From the NCBI RefSeq assembly GCF_020215705.1, contig NZ_JAIWNB010000038.1:1-64000 (forward strand): a stretch of 64,000 bases of DNA. The letters are read 5' to 3'. A program made the position numbers and the translations under genes. The notes below the pieces were generated by a model. That model made no database searches, was not told the DNA's origin, and worked only from the letters and a program-made list of their open reading frames with translations. The stretch comes from Nonomuraea aurantiaca (GTDB lineage Bacteria > Actinomycetota > Actinomycetes > Streptosporangiales > Streptosporangiaceae). Shown here in pieces: positions 5,383 through 34,583 of this stretch (within the stretch, counting starts at the first letter, position 1; every line of letters begins with the position of its first letter).

Positions 5383-6342
5383 TCAGCCAGTCGCTCGTGC
5401 GTAGCGGCCGGCGAGCCGGCGCAGGTGCGTGAGGAGTTCCGGCGGTCCGGTGACGTCGAAGTCCTCACCGAGCAGGCCCAGGTAGACGCCGAGGGTCTCG
5501 ACCGTGTCCGCGCCGGTGTGCAGGACGCAGGTGCGCTCGTCGACGCGTTCGACCGTTCCCACCGCCGGGCTGATCCGATCGGCGACGACATCGGCCGGCG
5601 CGTGTACGGTGACCCGCGCCCGGTAGCGCCAGGCGGCGGCGGACACCCGGCGTGACACGTATGCAGCCACGTCGTCGTCGGGCAGGTCGCGTGGTGTGAA
5701 GCGGGGGCCGGTCGGGGTGCGAGGCCGGATCCGGTCGACGCGGAAGGTGCGCCAGTCGTCCCGTTCGACGTCCCAGGCCAGCAGATACCAGCGGCGGCCC
5801 CAGTTGACCAGCCGGTACGGCTCGGCGGTGCGCACGGTGGCCGCACCGGCATGGTCATGGTAGTCGAAGCGGAGCCGTTCCCGGTCACGGCAGACCGCGG
5901 TCAGGGTGGTCAGGATCGACGGGTCGACGCGGGGGCCGGCGTCGTCGCGGGGCACCGGCACCGTGTAGGTCTGCAGGGTGTTGACCCGGCGCCGCAGCCG
6001 TGACGGCAGCACCTGCTCCAGCTTCGCCAGTGCCCGCAAGGACGCCTCCTCGATCCCCGCGATGGCGCCGCTGGTGGCGGTCCGGAGGCCGACCGTGACG
6101 GCGACCGCTTCCTCATCGTCGAGCAGCAACGGCGGCAGCGCGGCGCCGGCACCCAGACGGTAGCCGCCGGTGGCGCCGCGCGTGGCCAGTACCGGATAGC
6201 CGAGGCCGCGCAGGCGCTCCACGTCGGTGCGCACGGTCCGCCCGCTCACCCCGAGGCGCTCGGCGAGTTCGGTGCCGGTCCAGTCGCGTGGGGTTTGCAG
6301 GAGGGAGAGCAGCCGCAGGAGGCGGGCGGAGGTGTCCAACAT
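5383..6342 (-). CDS. WYL-domain transcriptional regulator (YafY/DeoR-type HTH)
   Basis: 319 residues. An N-terminal HTH_11 winged helix (LAERLGVSGRTVRTDVERLR, residues 26-45) is followed by a WYL domain around residues 140-220 (RLVNWGRRWYLLAWDVERDDWRTFRVDRI) and a C-terminal extension. It is divergent from the epoxide hydrolase gene across 62 bp that contain a perfect ATTAGGA/TCCTAAT inverted repeat, so it probably controls that hydrolase and itself. The ligand is unknown. Confidence 0.9.
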   Translation of the reverse strand: MLDTSARLLRLLSLLQTPRDWTGTELAERLGVSGRTVRTDVERLRGLGYPVLATRGATGGYRLGAGAALPPLLLDDEEAVAVTVGLRTATSGAIAGIEEASLRALAKLEQVLPSRLRRRVNTLQTYTVPVPRDDAGPRVDPSILTTLTAVCRDRERLRFDYHDHAGAATVRTAEPYRLVNWGRRWYLLAWDVERDDWRTFRVDRIRPRTPTGPRFTPRDLPDDDVAAYVSRRVSAAAWRYRARVTVHAPADVVADRISPAVGTVERVDERTCVLHTGADTVETLGVYLGLLGEDFDVTGPPELLTHLRRLAGRYARATG

Positions 6343-15538: not shown

Positions 15539-16855
15539 TCAGCCCGCGCGCAGCTCCGCCGCGACCGCCCGCTCCCGCAGCTGGGTGGCCTCCGCCCGAG
15601 CCGCCTCCAGCTGAGCACGGGCGTCCTCCAGCCGAGACCGCTCCAGCCGCAGCTCCCCCCGCAACCGATCGCGTTCCTCCACCGCGCCCTCCGCCGTCTC
15701 GCGCGCCTGAGCGATCTCCGCGGCGGCCAGCTCCCGAGCCTTCACCGCGTCGTTCAGGGCGACGGCGCGATCCCGCTGCGCCTCGGCCGCGGCACGTTCG
15801 GCGGTCTCCGCCCGGGTGACGGCCCGTTCCCGCTCCTGCCCGGCCGCCTCCGCCCTGGCCTCGGCCGCGGCCAGGTCCCGCTCGGCCAGCTGCCTGGCCC
15901 GCCTGGCTTCCGTCGCCTCCTCACGTGCGCGATCACGCTCCGCCAGCGCCGCCGCCGCCTCTTTGCGGGCCTGTTCGGCTCGCTCCTCCCCGTCCTTTTC
16001 CGCCCGCACGGCTCGGGCTTCGGCCTCCTTCCGCACCTGTACGACCTGCGCCTGCGCCTCCTCCTCAGCGCGTACCACCCGAGCTTCTGCCGCCGTCTCC
16101 GCTCGTACGGCCCGCGCCTCCGCCTCAGCGGCACGCCCGTCGGCGGCCTCGACCCGCTCCGCCAGCTCCTGAAGGGCCTGATCCCTGGCCCGCTCGGTCA
16201 GCTCCGCCCGCCGTACCGCCTCATCGGCCTGCCGTTCGGCCAGATCGGCCCGGCGCCCGGCCTCCTCGGCCGACTGCAGGGCCTGCCGCTCGGTGCTGGC
16301 CGCCTCCCGCAACGCGGCCAGCGCCTGCTCGCGAGCCCGCTCACCGTCAGCCAGCGCCGTGTCCCGCTCTGCCTCGGCCTCCTCCACGCGCAGCCGCATC
16401 ACGCCGGCCTCCCTGCGCGCGTGCTCCGCAGCCTCCCGCGACAGCCGTACCTGCTCGAACGCCTGCTCCCGTTCAGTACGCGCGATGGCGACCCGCGTGT
16501 GAGCCTCAGCCTGTACGGCGCTGAGCTTCGCCTCGACCCCGGCCGGACTCAATTCCTGGGCCAGCGCCCTGGCCAGGGGCTCGATGGCGGCGCTCAGCCC
16601 GTTTTCCATCCGGTCGTACAGCTGCTCGGCCCGCGCCAGCGCCCCCTCCAGCCCGGGCGTGGCACGGCGCATCTCCCGCTCACGCTTGGCGGCGGCCTGG
16701 CAGTCGCCTTCCGGGCAGTACGCCTTGGGCCGCCCCCTCCCCCGCCGCTGCTCTATCGGGGCTCCACAGTGCAGGCACGGCGTAACCACTGTGGCTTCTG
16801 TGCTGATCTGTCGAGCGCCGGCCTGCGGCGCGCCGTGCTTGTCCGGGATGGTCAC
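15539..16855 (-). CDS. Ala/Glu-rich coiled-coil protein with N-terminal zinc-ribbon-like motif
   Basis: From the GTG at 16855 the protein is 438 residues; the frame stays open to 16987, so the start is uncertain. Residues 25-60 hold a Cys cluster (PCLHCGAPIEQ ... GRPKAYCPEGDC) resembling a zinc finger of the CxxCG/RPKxYC type. The rest, about residues 60-438, is almost continuous coiled coil rich in Ala, Glu and Arg (heptads such as AEAEARAVRAETAAEARVVR). The layout resembles KfrA-like plasmid or mobile-element proteins, but I cannot confirm homology. It sits at the edge of the foreign segment. Confidence 0.6.
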   Translation of the reverse strand: MTIPDKHGAPQAGARQISTEATVVTPCLHCGAPIEQRRGRGRPKAYCPEGDCQAAAKREREMRRATPGLEGALARAEQLYDRMENGLSAAIEPLARALAQELSPAGVEAKLSAVQAEAHTRVAIARTEREQAFEQVRLSREAAEHARREAGVMRLRVEEAEAERDTALADGERAREQALAALREAASTERQALQSAEEAGRRADLAERQADEAVRRAELTERARDQALQELAERVEAADGRAAEAEARAVRAETAAEARVVRAEEEAQAQVVQVRKEAEARAVRAEKDGEERAEQARKEAAAALAERDRAREEATEARRARQLAERDLAAAEARAEAAGQERERAVTRAETAERAAAEAQRDRAVALNDAVKARELAAAEIAQARETAEGAVEERDRLRGELRLERSRLEDARAQLEAARAEATQLRERAVAAELRAG

Positions 16856-17080
16856 TGATCTTGCCTTCTCATAGGAAGTGGCGGATTTCGCGGAACGGGA
16901 CGCCGACAGAGGCGGGCCTTGGGCGGACCCAGAACCTGCCGCGTCTGAAGGCGAACCGTAATCGCCGCCCGCCCGCCCGTCTCTCAATGAACGTGGCGTT
17001 CGAGGAACCCCCTGACCCGTCAGAGACCGACGTGACGAAGACGCCGGGCAAGGCCGCGGCCTCTGCGGCCTCGCGCGACT

Positions 17081-17749
17081 TCACGACGCACCACCACCGA
17101 AATACCGCACGTCATCTGGCATATGTGGCGCATCTGGCGCATCTGGCGCAAGGCGCTCGCGCCAGGGATGTGTGGTGTGCTCGGTCTCCAGCGCCTCGTC
17201 CAGCCAGCGCCGCTGCCCCTTACTCAGCAGCGGGAGGACCGCCTCGAAATCGGCCTCGTCCTTCGGCCGCAGCCCCCTGGATTTGTAGAGCAATTGCACC
17301 TCCGGGACAACCCGCCGGAAACCATCCTGTTCGACGGTCAATCCGGCCAGCGGGCGGCGGATCCGAGGGTCACGCCGGTAGACCCAATCCTCCTCGTCGG
17401 CCTCGTCCAGCATGAGCTGGAACCGCCAAGGGCCGTCCGGATGCTCGCGTACCCAGATGTCGTGCGCCTGCTCGGGCAGCACCTCGCCAAGCGCCCATGG
17501 CCGCAGCGTCTGGGGCACGACCGCGGCGTGTACGTCCCAGCCGTCCAGTAGCCGCCGCACTGCGAGTTGATCCCGACGCAGCAGCGCGATATCGACGTCC
17601 CCGTGCTCGCGGTACGCGTGGCCCACGGCCAGCTCGATGGCGTAGCCGCCGGCCACCCACCACGGCGCCGCCAGCCCGCGCATCAGTGCGACGACCTCGC
17701 CAAGCGGCGCGGCCTCCCAGGGACCCCACGGAGTCTCGATCCTCGCCAT
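17081..17749 (-). CDS. Nucleotidyltransferase, aminoglycoside-2''-adenylyltransferase-like fold
   Basis: 222 residues from the ATG at 17749; upstream ATG 17851 and the open frame to 17923 are alternatives. The motif WWVAGGYAIELAVG followed by HGDVDIALLRRDQ matches the GG...HxDxD core of the ANT(2'')/PF10706-like nucleotidyltransferases, which use paired Asp for metal. A late KDEADFEAVLPLL segment is also typical. Many family members have no proven resistance role, so no substrate is assigned. The 3' end carries 9-bp tandem units (gcgcatctg, about 17127-17152) encoding the repetitive APDAPDAPH tail. Confidence 0.75.
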   Translation of the reverse strand: MARIETPWGPWEAAPLGEVVALMRGLAAPWWVAGGYAIELAVGHAYREHGDVDIALLRRDQLAVRRLLDGWDVHAAVVPQTLRPWALGEVLPEQAHDIWVREHPDGPWRFQLMLDEADEEDWVYRRDPRIRRPLAGLTVEQDGFRRVVPEVQLLYKSRGLRPKDEADFEAVLPLLSKGQRRWLDEALETEHTTHPWRERLAPDAPDAPHMPDDVRYFGGGAS

Positions 17750-17923
17750 CGGCAAATCATGCACGATCACAGCCTCCGTCGTCAGCGCGCACGGCACTCC
17801 AAGCCAAGGGCCCGCCAGGCTCCACGCGACGCTTCCAGAGGGACCGGACATCAGGAGGTCTTCCTCGCCTCTTTGGAGGTGAGCCCCCGCACGGTTCTCG
17901 CGTCCGCCCGTCTCAGTCGCCAC

Positions 17924-18100
17924 GCTCAGACTCTAGCATTTTCTGTTTTCTAGAAATTCAAATTCAATAATTCAGATCTGTTGCGTGGCGGAGGATCTTG
18001 GCAACTTGCGAGAAGGTGGAATTCCCACAAGTTTCGATTTACAGCCGCGAGCCGGGGTTCCTGGTGGTTGTCCTGACTCAGCGAAGTATGGGACTAGCCA
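17924..18100. other. Intergenic DNA left of the repeat array
   Basis: This stretch is noticeably more A+T-rich than its surroundings around 17936-17980. I see no gene. It ends at the TGTGAC that may mark a transposon terminus. Confidence 0.4.
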
Positions 18101-18310
18101 TGTGACTTCTCGCTGTAGGTGGCATTTTCTCGTTATACCTGGCACGGCGACGCGACTCTCTCAACGCAGATGGCACGAACTCTCGGAGTGAGGGCTTCGG
18201 GTTCTCATCCAAGGTGGCATCATGGCCACCTTCTCAATCCACTTGGCGCCGGGCACGGGTTCTCATCCAAGGTGGCGTGAGGGAGTGCGCCTGTTCTCAT
18301 CCGACGTGGC
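18101..18310 (+). repeat. Array of TTCTC-N8-TGGC sites, candidate Tn7/Tn5053-type transposon end
   Basis: Six exact TTCTC-N8-TGGC units start at 18107, 18127, 18202, 18231, 18260 and 18294. One unit, at 18158, differs by one base (CTCTC), and one degenerate unit starts near 18180. All lie in the same orientation, with the first two exactly 20 bp apart. The array is preceded by TGTGAC at 18101, and elements of this class begin with TGT. Multiple 20-bp transposase-binding sites at a terminus are the hallmark of TnsB/TniA ends, and the next two genes encode TniQ proteins. No matching inverted array was found to the right, so only one end is supported. Confidence 0.6.
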
Positions 18311-18480
18311 ACTTCGCTCGCACCCGGAGGCGACGGACGCCGAGCTGCCGATAGACAGGCCTGTTAGAACTTGTGGCGTGCCTCCGCATCATGAGGGGCA
18401 CGAGATGTTCCCCTCCCGGCTCGTGGATGTAGGACGTTAGACTGGTTTCTAATACACCCTGTAGTGTTGGTGACTCGATC

Positions 18481-19461
18481 ATGCCGCGAAATGACGGTTT
18501 GCCTACCGGCTGGCCCCATACCGCCACTCATCCACTGCCGCGCCGCGTAGCTCCTATACAATCCGAAACAGTCAACTCCTTCCTTGAGCGTTTGGCGCGC
18601 GCCAATCGAATATCGCTCAGCGATTTGGCATGCCTGCTTTTTCCGTCTGAATATAACAACCTTAATATAACTGTACGCAGACTGCGCCTGGAGCAGCTTG
18701 CGACCGTATCAGGGATCTCACCGATATGTCTGGCATATGGGCTGCCGGAGATGCGGATGCACTTGCCTATAGCGCACGGGCTCCATCTGGAGGGAACCAC
18801 CAGGGCGGGCCGCCCAAATCGGGCGCTATTAGCGTGCCGCCTTTGTGTCTCCGCAAAAGGAGTCAAAGATAATGTCACAGTGTGGCGACGACCCGATGAG
18901 AATGTTTGTCTGCGCCATGGCTTATGGATTGGCGACGACGTGACATCGCCTGCCGATCAGGTTTCCGTGTCGAGTTTGCCTGAAATTCTCTGGGCTCAGC
19001 GTGCACATAGTCGTATGATCAGGCGTTTCGGTTATCGAGAAGTAGGAGCAGCCTACGACGGAGCCATCCGTGCAGTGGACTGGTCGACTCATTTTCCATC
19101 AGATACCCCACGCTGGAGGCGTCGGGAATATTTCGGCCAGCAAGAAGGCACCGGGAACGTCTCCCATGCTTGCGACGCGGCTGCGATGTACCCCGAGGTC
19201 GTGACCCTTGCCAGGGTGCTTGTCTCACCCTATTGGCGGCGGTTGAGTGTCGGGGACGACCCGGAGCGGGAGAGGTTCTTCCGCCAGGTTGCAGAGTACG
19301 GAGTTACGAATGGTCGGCCGGATCTGAACACGCCGTTGCAGCGCTGGATCGACATGCAGAGCTGGCCGTGGCCGGATGTGCCGCAAGACGAGAAAGTGGC
19401 CTTGTTGCGCCGGTGTCTGCCGATGTCACCGGTTGTCGAAGAGGTGGAGAGCCACTCGTGA
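18481..19461 (+). CDS. TniQ-family protein, first of a tandem pair
   Basis: 326 residues with the TniQ N-terminal domain: PRRVAPIQSETVNSFLERLARANRISLSDL (residues about 20-50) and a zinc-binding CRLC...CLRH pattern near residues 119-146. TniQ/TnsD proteins direct target choice in Tn7-, Tn5053- and CAST-type transposons by bridging DNA to the AAA+ regulator. No TniA/TnsB transposase or TniB/TnsC ATPase gene is nearby. Codon use is visibly less G+C-biased than in the flanking genes, consistent with horizontal transfer. Confidence 0.8.
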   Translation: MPRNDGLPTGWPHTATHPLPRRVAPIQSETVNSFLERLARANRISLSDLACLLFPSEYNNLNITVRRLRLEQLATVSGISPICLAYGLPEMRMHLPIAHGLHLEGTTRAGRPNRALLACRLCVSAKGVKDNVTVWRRPDENVCLRHGLWIGDDVTSPADQVSVSSLPEILWAQRAHSRMIRRFGYREVGAAYDGAIRAVDWSTHFPSDTPRWRRREYFGQQEGTGNVSHACDAAAMYPEVVTLARVLVSPYWRRLSVGDDPERERFFRQVAEYGVTNGRPDLNTPLQRWIDMQSWPWPDVPQDEKVALLRRCLPMSPVVEEVESHS

Positions 19462-19496
19462 TCGTCTTCATGTGCAGGGATTCGAAGGACAGATGA

Positions 19497-20576
19497 GTGG
19501 CGGGTCGGATGAGTAACGAGCGCTTTGTGAAGCCGTCGCGCCTGCCTTTGGTTTGCAGACCCTTCCATCGTGAGACGACACAGTCCTACATCACCCGGCT
19601 GGCCAGTGCTAATCGATTGGCGCCCGGCGGGTTACAGCGTTACCTGTCTGCCAGTGATCGGTCCATTTTTCCGACCTCACCCGAGCGATTGTCCGCAGTG
19701 ACAGGTATATCCCAGGCCAACCTGCTCCTGGCTCTGCCGGACCTTGAACAGCGCTACCCAAAGGAACCCTTGCGGCATCAACGGCGAGCGTGTGTGAGCT
19801 GCCAGCGGATACGTGGCTCTACTGAGCCGATAACGTGCTGGTTGCCACAGGAGCAGATGGCGTGTGTGCAGCACTTCCGCTGGTTGGAAGCGGGGAAGGC
19901 GCGGGAGCAACCTAGTCTTGTGGGACAGTCGAGCATCGTACGGGCGAATGCGCAGCATCGGCGCCTGGTGCGCCGTCTAGGCCGTCATGATATGGAGTTG
20001 GGGTATGAGATCGCCACACGCATCGTTGTTGAATGGCATCGTAAGCGGTGGTTCGATGAGGATTTTCAGCGACTCATGACGGTGTTTCGCTCAGACTGGA
20101 GGAGTATTTGGTTGAATGATCCGTACGCCCGGGCCTCGCGCTATCCGCAAGTCATCGCCTTAACACGCCTGATCGCCACGCCACACTGGCGATCCTTGGC
20201 CATACACGATGAGGGTCGGGGCCGCTTCTTCGACGAATTAGTCCGCACGGTGGCGCCTTCGTATCTTTACCAGCCGCAGCAATGGAGTTCGGTAGATCCT
20301 CTGCTGAGGTGGATTGGAGACGAAATCGAGTTCGCTGTCGATCCTCAGGAGATTCGTAGGCGCCGCACGCATCACTTGGCCCGGCCTGCACCGCTCACCT
20401 CACTTCCCGCACATCCAGAGGTGATCGCGCGCCAAATGCTAGGCCAACTCCCCCCATCGCTTCTGTTGTTGCCGGCCGGATACACTCCCACGCCCTGTCC
20501 TGCCTGTTCACGTGCGCGTTCCTGGAACCCTACTCCGCCGAGTGTGCCTAGTCAGTTTAAATCAAGGCCTTTCTAA
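19497..20576 (+). CDS. TniQ-family protein, second of a tandem pair
   Basis: 359 residues from GTG 19497; ATG 19509 is an alternative. The N-terminal RLPLVCRPFHRETTQSYITRLASANRLAPGGL is the TniQ signature, followed by a zinc site CVSC...CVQH near residues 101-125. It is clearly paralogous to the preceding gene, sharing segments such as the YPxVxxLxRxxxxPxWRxL stretch. A C-terminal CPACSRARSW adds a further Cys pair. The two genes are 35 bp apart and probably co-transcribed. Two TniQ paralogues may serve two targeting modes, but without core transposase genes the element looks incomplete. Confidence 0.8.
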   Translation: MAGRMSNERFVKPSRLPLVCRPFHRETTQSYITRLASANRLAPGGLQRYLSASDRSIFPTSPERLSAVTGISQANLLLALPDLEQRYPKEPLRHQRRACVSCQRIRGSTEPITCWLPQEQMACVQHFRWLEAGKAREQPSLVGQSSIVRANAQHRRLVRRLGRHDMELGYEIATRIVVEWHRKRWFDEDFQRLMTVFRSDWRSIWLNDPYARASRYPQVIALTRLIATPHWRSLAIHDEGRGRFFDELVRTVAPSYLYQPQQWSSVDPLLRWIGDEIEFAVDPQEIRRRRTHHLARPAPLTSLPAHPEVIARQMLGQLPPSLLLLPAGYTPTPCPACSRARSWNPTPPSVPSQFKSRPF

Positions 20577-20585
20577 ATTAGCTGG

Positions 20586-21129
20586 TCAGAGGCCCACATT
20601 CCGCATGGCGTTGTCCCGCCAGCGGTCCACGGCCCTGATGTAGCGCAAAACCACGGGTGAGGCGGGGGCCCAGCGGCCGTGCTTGGCGATGACGGCGACG
20701 GGGACACCGGCGGCGTAAGCGACGGTGGCGCCGCCGGCACGCAGACTGTGCGCCGTGATCGTTTCGGCGCTGGGGACACCGGCGCGGACGGCGAGGTCGC
20801 GGACGATGGTGTTGACGGCGTCGGCGCCGAGCGAGGGACCGATCCTCCCGTGCCGGTTGATCCGGCGCAGCAGTCGCCCTGAGGTGTGTCCGGCCTGGTC
20901 AAGCTGAGTGAGCCAGTCGCGCCAGGCGGCGACCGGGTCGGTCAGCGGGTGGCTGCCGCGTGGGATGGCGATGGTCTCGCCGCGGGAGTCCTTGTCGGTC
21001 TCCCGGGCGTAGGCGCGGCGGGTAGCCCGCACTCGACCCGGCCCGCTTCCACGCTTTCTTCACCGAGAGCGGCCCACCAGAGTCGAAGGTCCTCAGCCCG
21101 GGTGTCAGCTCGGTCCTCTCACTCATGGC
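20586..21129 (-). pseudogene. Tyrosine recombinase/integrase with internal deletion and frameshift
   Basis: The last 130 residues match the catalytic half of a phage-type integrase: ITAHSLRAGGATVA, then HGRW, then the Tyr nucleophile in VLRYIRAVDRW. Just upstream, TRRAYAR (from the N-terminal core-binding domain) runs straight into ETDKDSRGETIAIPR (from the catalytic domain). About 150 residues, including the first catalytic Arg, are therefore missing. A plausible N-terminus (MSERTELTPGLRTF, start 21129) is in another frame. This cannot be an active recombinase. It lies 9 bp past the end of the second TniQ gene, tail to tail. Confidence 0.75.
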
Positions 21130-33438: not shown

Positions 33439-34583
33439 TGCGCGCCATCATCATCGGAGCCGGCATCGCCGGCTTGGCCGCCGCCCTGCGCCTGCGCCAG
33501 ATCGGCTGGGACACCCTGCTCATCGAACGCGCTCCACAGCGGCGCGGCGGCGGCTACGGGGTCAGCTTCGGCGGCATTGGCTACGACGCCGCCGAGCGCA
33601 TGGGCATCCTGCCCGCGCTGAAGGATAAAGCCTTCGTCACCAGCGAGCTTGTCTACCACAAGCCAGGCGGAGAGCGCCGATTCTCCCTCGACCGCGCCAC
33701 CATCGCGGCCACCATGGGTCAGCGGTCGATGAACATCCTGCGCGGCGACGTCGAGACCGTCCTGTACGAGACGGTCGCGGACACCGTCGAGATCCGATTC
33801 GCCACCACCATCAACGCCGTCGAGCAGGACGAGCGCGCCATCCACGCCACCCTCAGCGACGGCACCGTCGAACACGCCGACCTGCTCATCGGCGCGGATG
33901 GCCTGCACTCGGCCACCCGCGCCCTGGTCTTCGGCCCCGAAGACGACTACCGCCTCGATCTGGAGCACATGGTCGCCGTCTACATGCTGGACAAGCGGCC
34001 GGCGGCCATCGCCGAAGGCACCACCGGCACCCTGTCGCAGGGCGGCCGAACGGTAGCCGTCATGAGCGTCGGCGACGGCCGCAACGTCGCCTTCTTCGGC
34101 TACCGCACCGACCGCGGCACCCCGGGCCAGGACCCCCACAAGGTGCTCCCCGAGGTCTACGGCGATATGGGCTGGGTGGTGCCCGAAGCCCTGGCCGGCC
34201 TGGCCACGACCGAATCGGTCTACTTCGACACCATCAGCCAGATGGTCCTCGACCGGTGGAGCCACGGTCGAGTGGTCCTGCTGGGTGATGCCGCCTGGTG
34301 CGTCACCTTGTTCGCCGGGTACGGCTCAGCCCTGGCCGTCGGCGGCGCCGACCTGCTTGGCACGGCCCTGCAGAACAACCCGGGTGACATCCGCGCCGCC
34401 CTGACCACCTGGGAGGCCGGACTACGCCCGGAGGTGGAGAAGAAACAGAAGCTGGGCCGCCGGGTCAAGGGCGTCTACGCCCCGGCCAACCCCGTCGTGC
34501 TGTGGCTGAGCCGACTGCCGCTGCGCTTGGCCTCCCTGGGCCCGGTCCGCCGCTACATGACGCGCCGCTACATCAAGGGCTGA
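33438..34583 (+). CDS. FAD-dependent monooxygenase (PHBH fold), first
   Basis: 381 residues. The FAD motif GAGIAGLAAALRLRQIGWDTLLIER lies at the N-terminus, the DG motif is LLIGADGLHSATR, and the second FAD contact is GRVVLLGDAAWCVTLFAGYGSALA. Group A flavin monooxygenases of this type hydroxylate small aromatics or polyketides. It is the last gene of the operon starting at 30762. Its 3' end overlaps the convergent second monooxygenase gene by 16 bp. Confidence 0.9.
   Translation: MRAIIIGAGIAGLAAALRLRQIGWDTLLIERAPQRRGGGYGVSFGGIGYDAAERMGILPALKDKAFVTSELVYHKPGGERRFSLDRATIAATMGQRSMNILRGDVETVLYETVADTVEIRFATTINAVEQDERAIHATLSDGTVEHADLLIGADGLHSATRALVFGPEDDYRLDLEHMVAVYMLDKRPAAIAEGTTGTLSQGGRTVAVMSVGDGRNVAFFGYRTDRGTPGQDPHKVLPEVYGDMGWVVPEALAGLATTESVYFDTISQMVLDRWSHGRVVLLGDAAWCVTLFAGYGSALAVGGADLLGTALQNNPGDIRAALTTWEAGLRPEVEKKQKLGRRVKGVYAPANPVVLWLSRLPLRLASLGPVRRYMTRRYIKG

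Follow-up and report, generated by a model that had tools for sequence, protein, structure and literature searches.

The window analysed here, i.e., the whole stretch of 64,000 nucleotides from Nonomuraea aurantiaca (contig NZ_JAIWNB010000038.1, positions 1 to 64,000), contains a row of short repeats in front of two genes of the TniQ target-selector family, and the question is what such a locus represents when no core transposase gene accompanies it. In Tn7, TnsB binds the end array and pairs the left end with the right end, TnsA and TnsB carry out the cutting, and TnsC together with TniQ chooses the target. A preliminary description of the locus left three options: a remnant, an element mobilised in trans, or a group in which duplicated TniQ proteins have another job. 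The first fits best, no right end above chance having been found in the searched contig; with a probability of roughly 85%, the locus would be an internally deleted remnant of a Tn7-like element that has lost its right end. That is to say, an actinobacterial transposon of the TnsA-TnsB-TnsC-TniQ type would have inserted into the variable interval that separates a conserved, palindrome-bearing block from the 3′ terminus of a tyrosine-recombinase gene, an internal deletion would then have removed tnsA, tnsB and tnsC, and the right end would have been lost by deletion or replacement. There would remain a left end with predicted TnsB sites and, behind it, a pair of target-selector genes that differ in lineage; tniQ-B possibly came from a second element. 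The features are collected in Table 1.

Table 1. Features of the locus (positions in the window).
Feature	Position	Strand	Remarks
Relic Tn7-like right end of another element	16791–16936	+	G069 mini-element right end matched at 75% identity (E 2e-29)
Genus-conserved flanking block	17905–18033	.	Ends in an imperfect palindrome, 18004–18032
Tn7-like left end	18101–18310	+	TGT-N3 terminus; sites 18107, 18127, 18158 (spacing 20/31)
Extra left-end sites	18202, 18231, 18260, 18294	+	Within 18101–18310
Leader between array and tniQ-A, presumed deletion scar	18311–18480	+	No tnsA/tnsB/tnsC remnant detectable
tniQ-A, target-selector family, 326 aa	18481–19461	+	PF06527 41.6 bits; subfamily profile 183.7 bits
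tniQ-B, 359 aa	19497–20576	+	Subfamily profile 160.0 bits; TniQ-homologous to about 20375, then a 66-aa tail
Tyrosine-recombinase gene, C-terminal remnant, 3′ end bordering the insert	20586–21032	-	PF00589 20.4 bits, cut-off 27.1

The site array and its terminus

First of all, the motif scan of the window confirmed the array as it had been described, with six exact and one near-exact TTCTC-N8-TGGC sites between 18107 and 18310, in one direction and beginning 6 bp after a TGT at 18101. All the sites of Table 1 are exact except that at 18158, which carries one mismatch (CTCTC), and a degenerate unit lies near 18180. In simulated sequence of the window's composition (first-order Markov, 300 runs of 64 kb), exact sites on the + strand occurred at 0.24 per 64 kb with at most one within 215 bp, against six observed; when the array's own composition was used for 5000 simulated stretches of 220 bp, 24 held one site and one held two. 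With up to one mismatch allowed, the whole window has 27 matches compared with 11.7 expected.

The alignment of related left ends gave the layout TGT-N3-[T/G]TC[T/C]C-N8-TGGC wherever the terminus was readable. A second site followed at +20 bp in nine of the 12 comparison ends and a third at +30 to 32 in six, these ends having been preselected because a terminus or site had already been found in them, with up to 2.3 mismatches allowed. The left end in the window shows TGT-N3 and sites at +20 and +31; since this layout matches that of related ends, some of which have 5-bp duplications, the TGT at 18101 very probably marks the genuine left terminus, as the preliminary description had supposed. 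Perfect 5-bp duplications were present in four of 13 non-window elements, namely L020 (CTGGC), L196 (GCGAC), L212 (ATGGG) and L025 (ACCGC), and the others had no clear duplication, L042 carrying a 12-bp direct repeat instead. The AGCCA abutting 18101 may be the left copy of a lost duplication. With predicted TnsB-type sites, a terminal TGT at fixed distance and the spacing of the family, 18101–18310 is, as far as such features can tell, the left end of a Tn7-like transposon, and its sites form a predicted array to which TnsB would once have bound.

Because the repeats stand just upstream of an apparent operon, they could also be taken as binding sites for a regulator of the tniQ genes, with no transposon end involved. 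This reading is scarcely credible, and it was rejected on the left-end layout, since motif, terminus and 20/31 spacing recur at the related left ends, including some with 5-bp duplications. The motif does not occur throughout the family: 10 of 27 related operons have a site with no more than one mismatch within about 300 bp upstream of tnsA, and the others have either a diverged motif or an end that escaped recognition. Seven left-end sites are more than most related left ends carry, and decay offers no explanation for this number. When genome_contigs was scanned for sites standing three in a row, no Tns gene appeared among the matches listed, and the seven three-site loci that were closely inspected were unrelated repeats or had no array of this motif.

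Two target selectors of different lineages

Both proteins encoded behind the array belong to the TniQ family, as had been proposed. TniQ-A exceeds the Pfam cut-off of 27 bits and TniQ-B, at 25.7 bits, lies just below it; both score high with a subfamily profile built from eight operon-linked TniQs (Table 1). Moreover, both retain every invariant residue of an 11-row alignment, including the CxxC...CxxH zinc residues (C119, C122, C143 and H146 in TniQ-A), and the profile of these 11 rows is weakly linked to solved TniQ structures (best E 0.0068). The distinct base composition noticed earlier is also real, with a local GC content of 57–64% per kb around the tniQ genes against about 70%.

The two frames are intact and run in the same direction, 35 bp apart, with no transposon end between them. 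TniQ-A and TniQ-B share 28–29% identity, whereas the TniQ of a relative, G102 (L194), matches TniQ-B at 51% identity over aa 10–293. Since TniQ-B is closer to that protein than to TniQ-A, the pair did not arise by a recent tandem duplication; the word 'paralogous' used in the preliminary description holds in a wide sense, and its 'duplicated TniQ' is wrong in detail. In the tree, TniQ-B pairs with the G102 protein at 100/99 support and TniQ-A stands elsewhere with weak support; a count of tree labels, made against the L212 rows only, came to 10% of bootstrap trees and still allows one origin.

The homology of TniQ-B to the G102 protein ends at about aa 293, and the 66 aa that follow are an unrelated frame, for which no convincing relative was found among the fetched loci. 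In G102 the right end of the element starts inside the 3′ part of the tniQ frame, so the loss of homology at this point suggests that the right end in the window was cut away at the same break. TniQ-B and its closest relative differ at 38, 32 and 61% of codon positions 1, 2 and 3, respectively (290 codons), a pattern that speaks for past constraint on the protein and is silent on constraint after a loss of tnsABC.

Relatives of the two proteins were looked for at several levels. TniQ matches were found in 5 of 59 relatives, in 29 of 341 genomes of the family (E 1e-15) and in 17 of 394 genomes of the class (E 1e-20), own genome included each time, and 54 plasmid records matched TniQ-A and 32 matched TniQ-B, of which 10 were read. 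TniQ-A had no confirmed relative in genome_contigs, neither protein had one in viral_contigs, and the DNA of 18050–20600 found nothing in plasmids. Two such TniQs side by side were listed for no other genome of the family or class (341 and 394 searched), and none of the loci read had two TniQs of the subfamily in one intact operon; among them an array directly followed by tniQ is likewise confined to the window.

Tandem tniQ genes as such are known. In the available part of Faure et al. (2023, PMC10293859), 'dual' tniQ-tnsD elements have two adjacent TniQ-family genes, as the window does, and the Tn7 branch of the TnsC tree includes 1,048 tandem tniQ loci compared with 2,905 single-gene ones; being counted on a TnsC tree, these tandems possess tnsC, unlike the window. 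Another likeness is offered by L212 (Streptomyces sp. NBC_01643 plasmid, NZ_CP109267), which has two neighbouring TniQ-derived genes and has lost tnsB; it differs in having kept a partial tnsA, tnsC, both ends and the 5-bp duplication, and its first TniQ is partial and its second full. Two intact selectors from different lineages are not yet explained for the window.

The absent transposition genes and the missing right end

In agreement with the earlier description, no profile match to tnsA, tnsB or tnsC was found anywhere in the window, and a six-frame search of 18300–18620 (hmmsearch --max) gave negative scores for all Tns profiles. Because no scrap of these genes lies between the array and tniQ-A, the deletion itself we can only infer, and the absence of tnsABC is read as a loss by comparison with related loci. 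Outside the window, 34 context loci were read, of which 24 came from the 32 places of the family search and 10 from plasmid records; tnsC, whole or partial, stood directly upstream of the best TniQ match or pair in all 34, and tnsA, tnsB, tnsC and tniQ were all present in 26. In the class-level sample, 19 of 23 TniQ loci had a nearby tnsC, and four short loci (L277, L281, L282 and L287) had none within about 1.5 kb. Stretches of 20 kb showed the TniQs of G658 and G527 to lie 2–3 kb from a lower-scoring tnsABC of a more distant subgroup, G582 to retain tnsA only and G615 to have no tns gene, so that the window is not the sole TniQ locus without tnsABC. Weaker TniQ matches (21–25 bits) in L042, L020 and L199 had no adjoining tnsC.

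Partly deleted relatives are common. In addition to L212 without tnsB, part of tnsC and tniQ are kept in L205 and L207, a scrap of tnsC and tniQ in L202, and tnsA with a partial tniQ in L321, and L320 has an orphan tniQ in 20 kb.

The right end of related elements is an inverted site ending in ACA. No such end above chance was found in the rest of contig C65, to which the window belongs and whose bases 83001–83835 lay outside the search: the best match had 2 mismatches within the remaining window and 2.3 within the next 19 kb, and the best in random sequence had 1 to 2.3 (20 runs of 45 kb). A partner end elsewhere on C65 was therefore rejected, the best matches being at chance level. The preliminary description had looked forward to an inverted partner with ACA joined to AGCCA; its sole occurrence, at 33658, has no site and was discarded. 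Compared with TnsA-TnsB-TnsC-TniQ elements, the window thus lacks tnsABC, the right end and the pair of inverted right end and 5-bp duplication that a complete transposon has, and it differs further in its seven sites and two TniQ lineages.

The genome is a draft of 11.85 Mb in 132 contigs, and the genome-wide transposase search covered TnsB. No near-full-length cognate TnsB was found in the draft by the TnsB profile, whose matches covered positions 557–634 (with a stop inside), 114–275 and 514–590 of 691. Mu-transpos_C was found in one transposase of another group and one fragment; supply in trans by the Mu-type transposase on C93 was rejected, as this enzyme scores 36 and 13 bits with the TnsB profile of the subfamily and belongs to another group. 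Since one end is present and the draft genome holds no near-full-length cognate TnsB, the copy should not be able to move on its own, except if TnsABC were provided by a plasmid or by a contig missing from the draft. As to CRISPR parts, the absence stated earlier holds for what was covered: 10 ORFs within 12.5–27.5 kb matched no PADLOC family except TniQ, and 8–34 kb contained no CRISPR-like direct repeats.

Mobilisation in trans by the TnsABC of another element, with the selectors carried along, was the second option. Elements of such a kind seem to be present in the genus, which makes trans-mobilisation there plausible, as judged from their ends and content. G075 (L305, C1 about 9895970–9896632) has a 660-bp pair of left and right ends that lacks any match to a Tns profile and is flanked by the perfect duplication ATGAC. 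In G012, G069 and G021 (L041, L251 and L307), a gene of about 228 aa comes after DNA matching a left end. This gene, whose open frame was checked in G012, occupies the place of tnsA and could be the cargo of non-autonomous elements. The G075 mini-element resembles the window in its three left-end sites with 20/32 spacing and the lack of a Tns match, and differs in having a right end and a duplication and no TniQ. For the window itself the option is improbable: a non-autonomous element has both ends and no transposase, whereas here the left end stands alone, no right end above chance exists on the searched contig and no near-full-length cognate TnsB was found in the draft. The tandem TniQ pair was listed for no other genome of the family or class and an array joined to tniQ was seen at no other locus read, and the G069 mini-element holds a tnsA scrap of 20 bits, so that the mini-elements may be deletion derivatives.

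The insertion place and the related elements

The insert lies between two conserved parts. On the left, the flanking block was counted by hand in 38 of 54 genus genomes, own included, some matches being partial, and its palindrome reads ACTTGCGAGAA-N7-TTCCCACAAGT (11-7-11). On the right, tniQ-B ends about 10 bp from the 3′ end of the tyrosine-recombinase gene, with which homology begins at 20578–20590 in relatives; a longer open frame containing the whole matched recombinase part was found in 14 of 20 relatives' loci, and a hand count, with the own genome included, gave at least 18 of the 54 genomes of the genus that have the gene. In eight relatives, 0.2 to 13 kb separate block and recombinase; the content of seven of these intervals was compared and mostly differs, although next to the recombinase L248, L249 and L253 have a stretch in common. 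The pair of block and recombinase gene, which recurs across the genus and lies at 17905–18033 and 20586–21001 in the window, has the look of a core site for recombination together with the enzyme that acts on it.

Across the block, 1.2 kb to the left of the array, lies the relic right end of another Tn7-like element (16791–16936), which is also 72% identical to the right end of G075 (E 2e-15). Its outer flank is similar in G069, and a similar right end stands beside the block in G074 (L306). Having the same orientation as the left end at 18101, it is not the partner of that end. The part inward of it contains a nucleotidyltransferase gene (17081–17923), and it seems that the inner part of that element was replaced by nucleotidyltransferase DNA. 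Owing to the variable interval and this second end across the block, the insertion place resembles a hot spot in which the debris of several elements has gathered. None of the relatives read showed these repeats at the corresponding position in a strain without TniQ, although in G069 a different Tn7-like left end lies across the block. No empty site without exactly this insert was found, which leaves some doubt as to where the insert ends on the right and how many elements contributed to it.

The remnant may have one of two sources, a single dual-tniQ element or several stacked elements. An origin of the array, tniQ-A and tniQ-B in two or three different elements that piled up at one hot spot is a tentative proposal, drawing on the firm placement of TniQ-B with L194 and the weak placement of TniQ-A elsewhere, on the second Tn7-like end to the left and on L042 and L020, where a second, long TniQ lies just beyond the right end. 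It has to be weighed against the short distance and common direction of the two tniQ genes with no end between them, and against the tandem tniQ genes of single elements in the part of Faure et al. cited above.

The remnant has close counterparts in intact elements. The element of the Rhodococcus sp. AH-ZY2 plasmid NZ_CP126457 has, like the window, a TGT terminus, the same invariant TniQ residues and sites at +20 and +31, and that of the Streptomyces sp. NBC_01216 plasmid NZ_CP108679 has a TGT, a TniQ of the same subfamily and +20 with poorer sites. It has been reported, in the available part of the source, that an Actinobacteria-dominated Tn7-like clade had no experimentally characterised member as of 2021 (PMC8649781), and we assume that the group of the window belongs to it. 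A terminus and an end layout (TGT-N3, sites at 0, +20 and +31) are now available for this actinobacterial group. Its end arrays, TniQ genes and mini-elements are scattered as debris, and therefore TniQ genes or site arrays alone are no proof of a live element.

The locus is for the most part an ordinary relic of a known kind of element, and what is unusual in it is the seven sites and the two heterologous intact selectors. A very improbable further reading is that a selector-only derivative of Tn7 is kept by selection, its seven-site end capturing incoming TnsB. That such capture would lead to target immunity or to pairing with a foreign right end is just as far-fetched, and there is equally slight expectation that the two selectors, acting in trans, divert or hold back transposons that arrive at the recombinase hot spot. 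If selector-only derivatives were truly maintained, they would be a new kind of satellite.

Some related loci deserve mention in their own right. In L042 (G023), an intact-looking Tn7-like element is flanked by the 12-bp repeat GGCGTGTACGGC (1290–1301 and 6305–6316) and sits directly upstream of a second, longer tniQ. A longer TniQ gene beside a tnsA-like gene occurs in L020 (6247–8309, G024) and in L004 of the own genome (5470–7375), and this pair is perhaps another type of element. In the Mycobacterium phage prophiGD15-1 (MW584180.1, 59395–64092, L317), an operon of TnsA, a transposase, a third gene and a TniQ-like gene lies in a prophage, the last of these genes bearing the annotation RNA binding protein.
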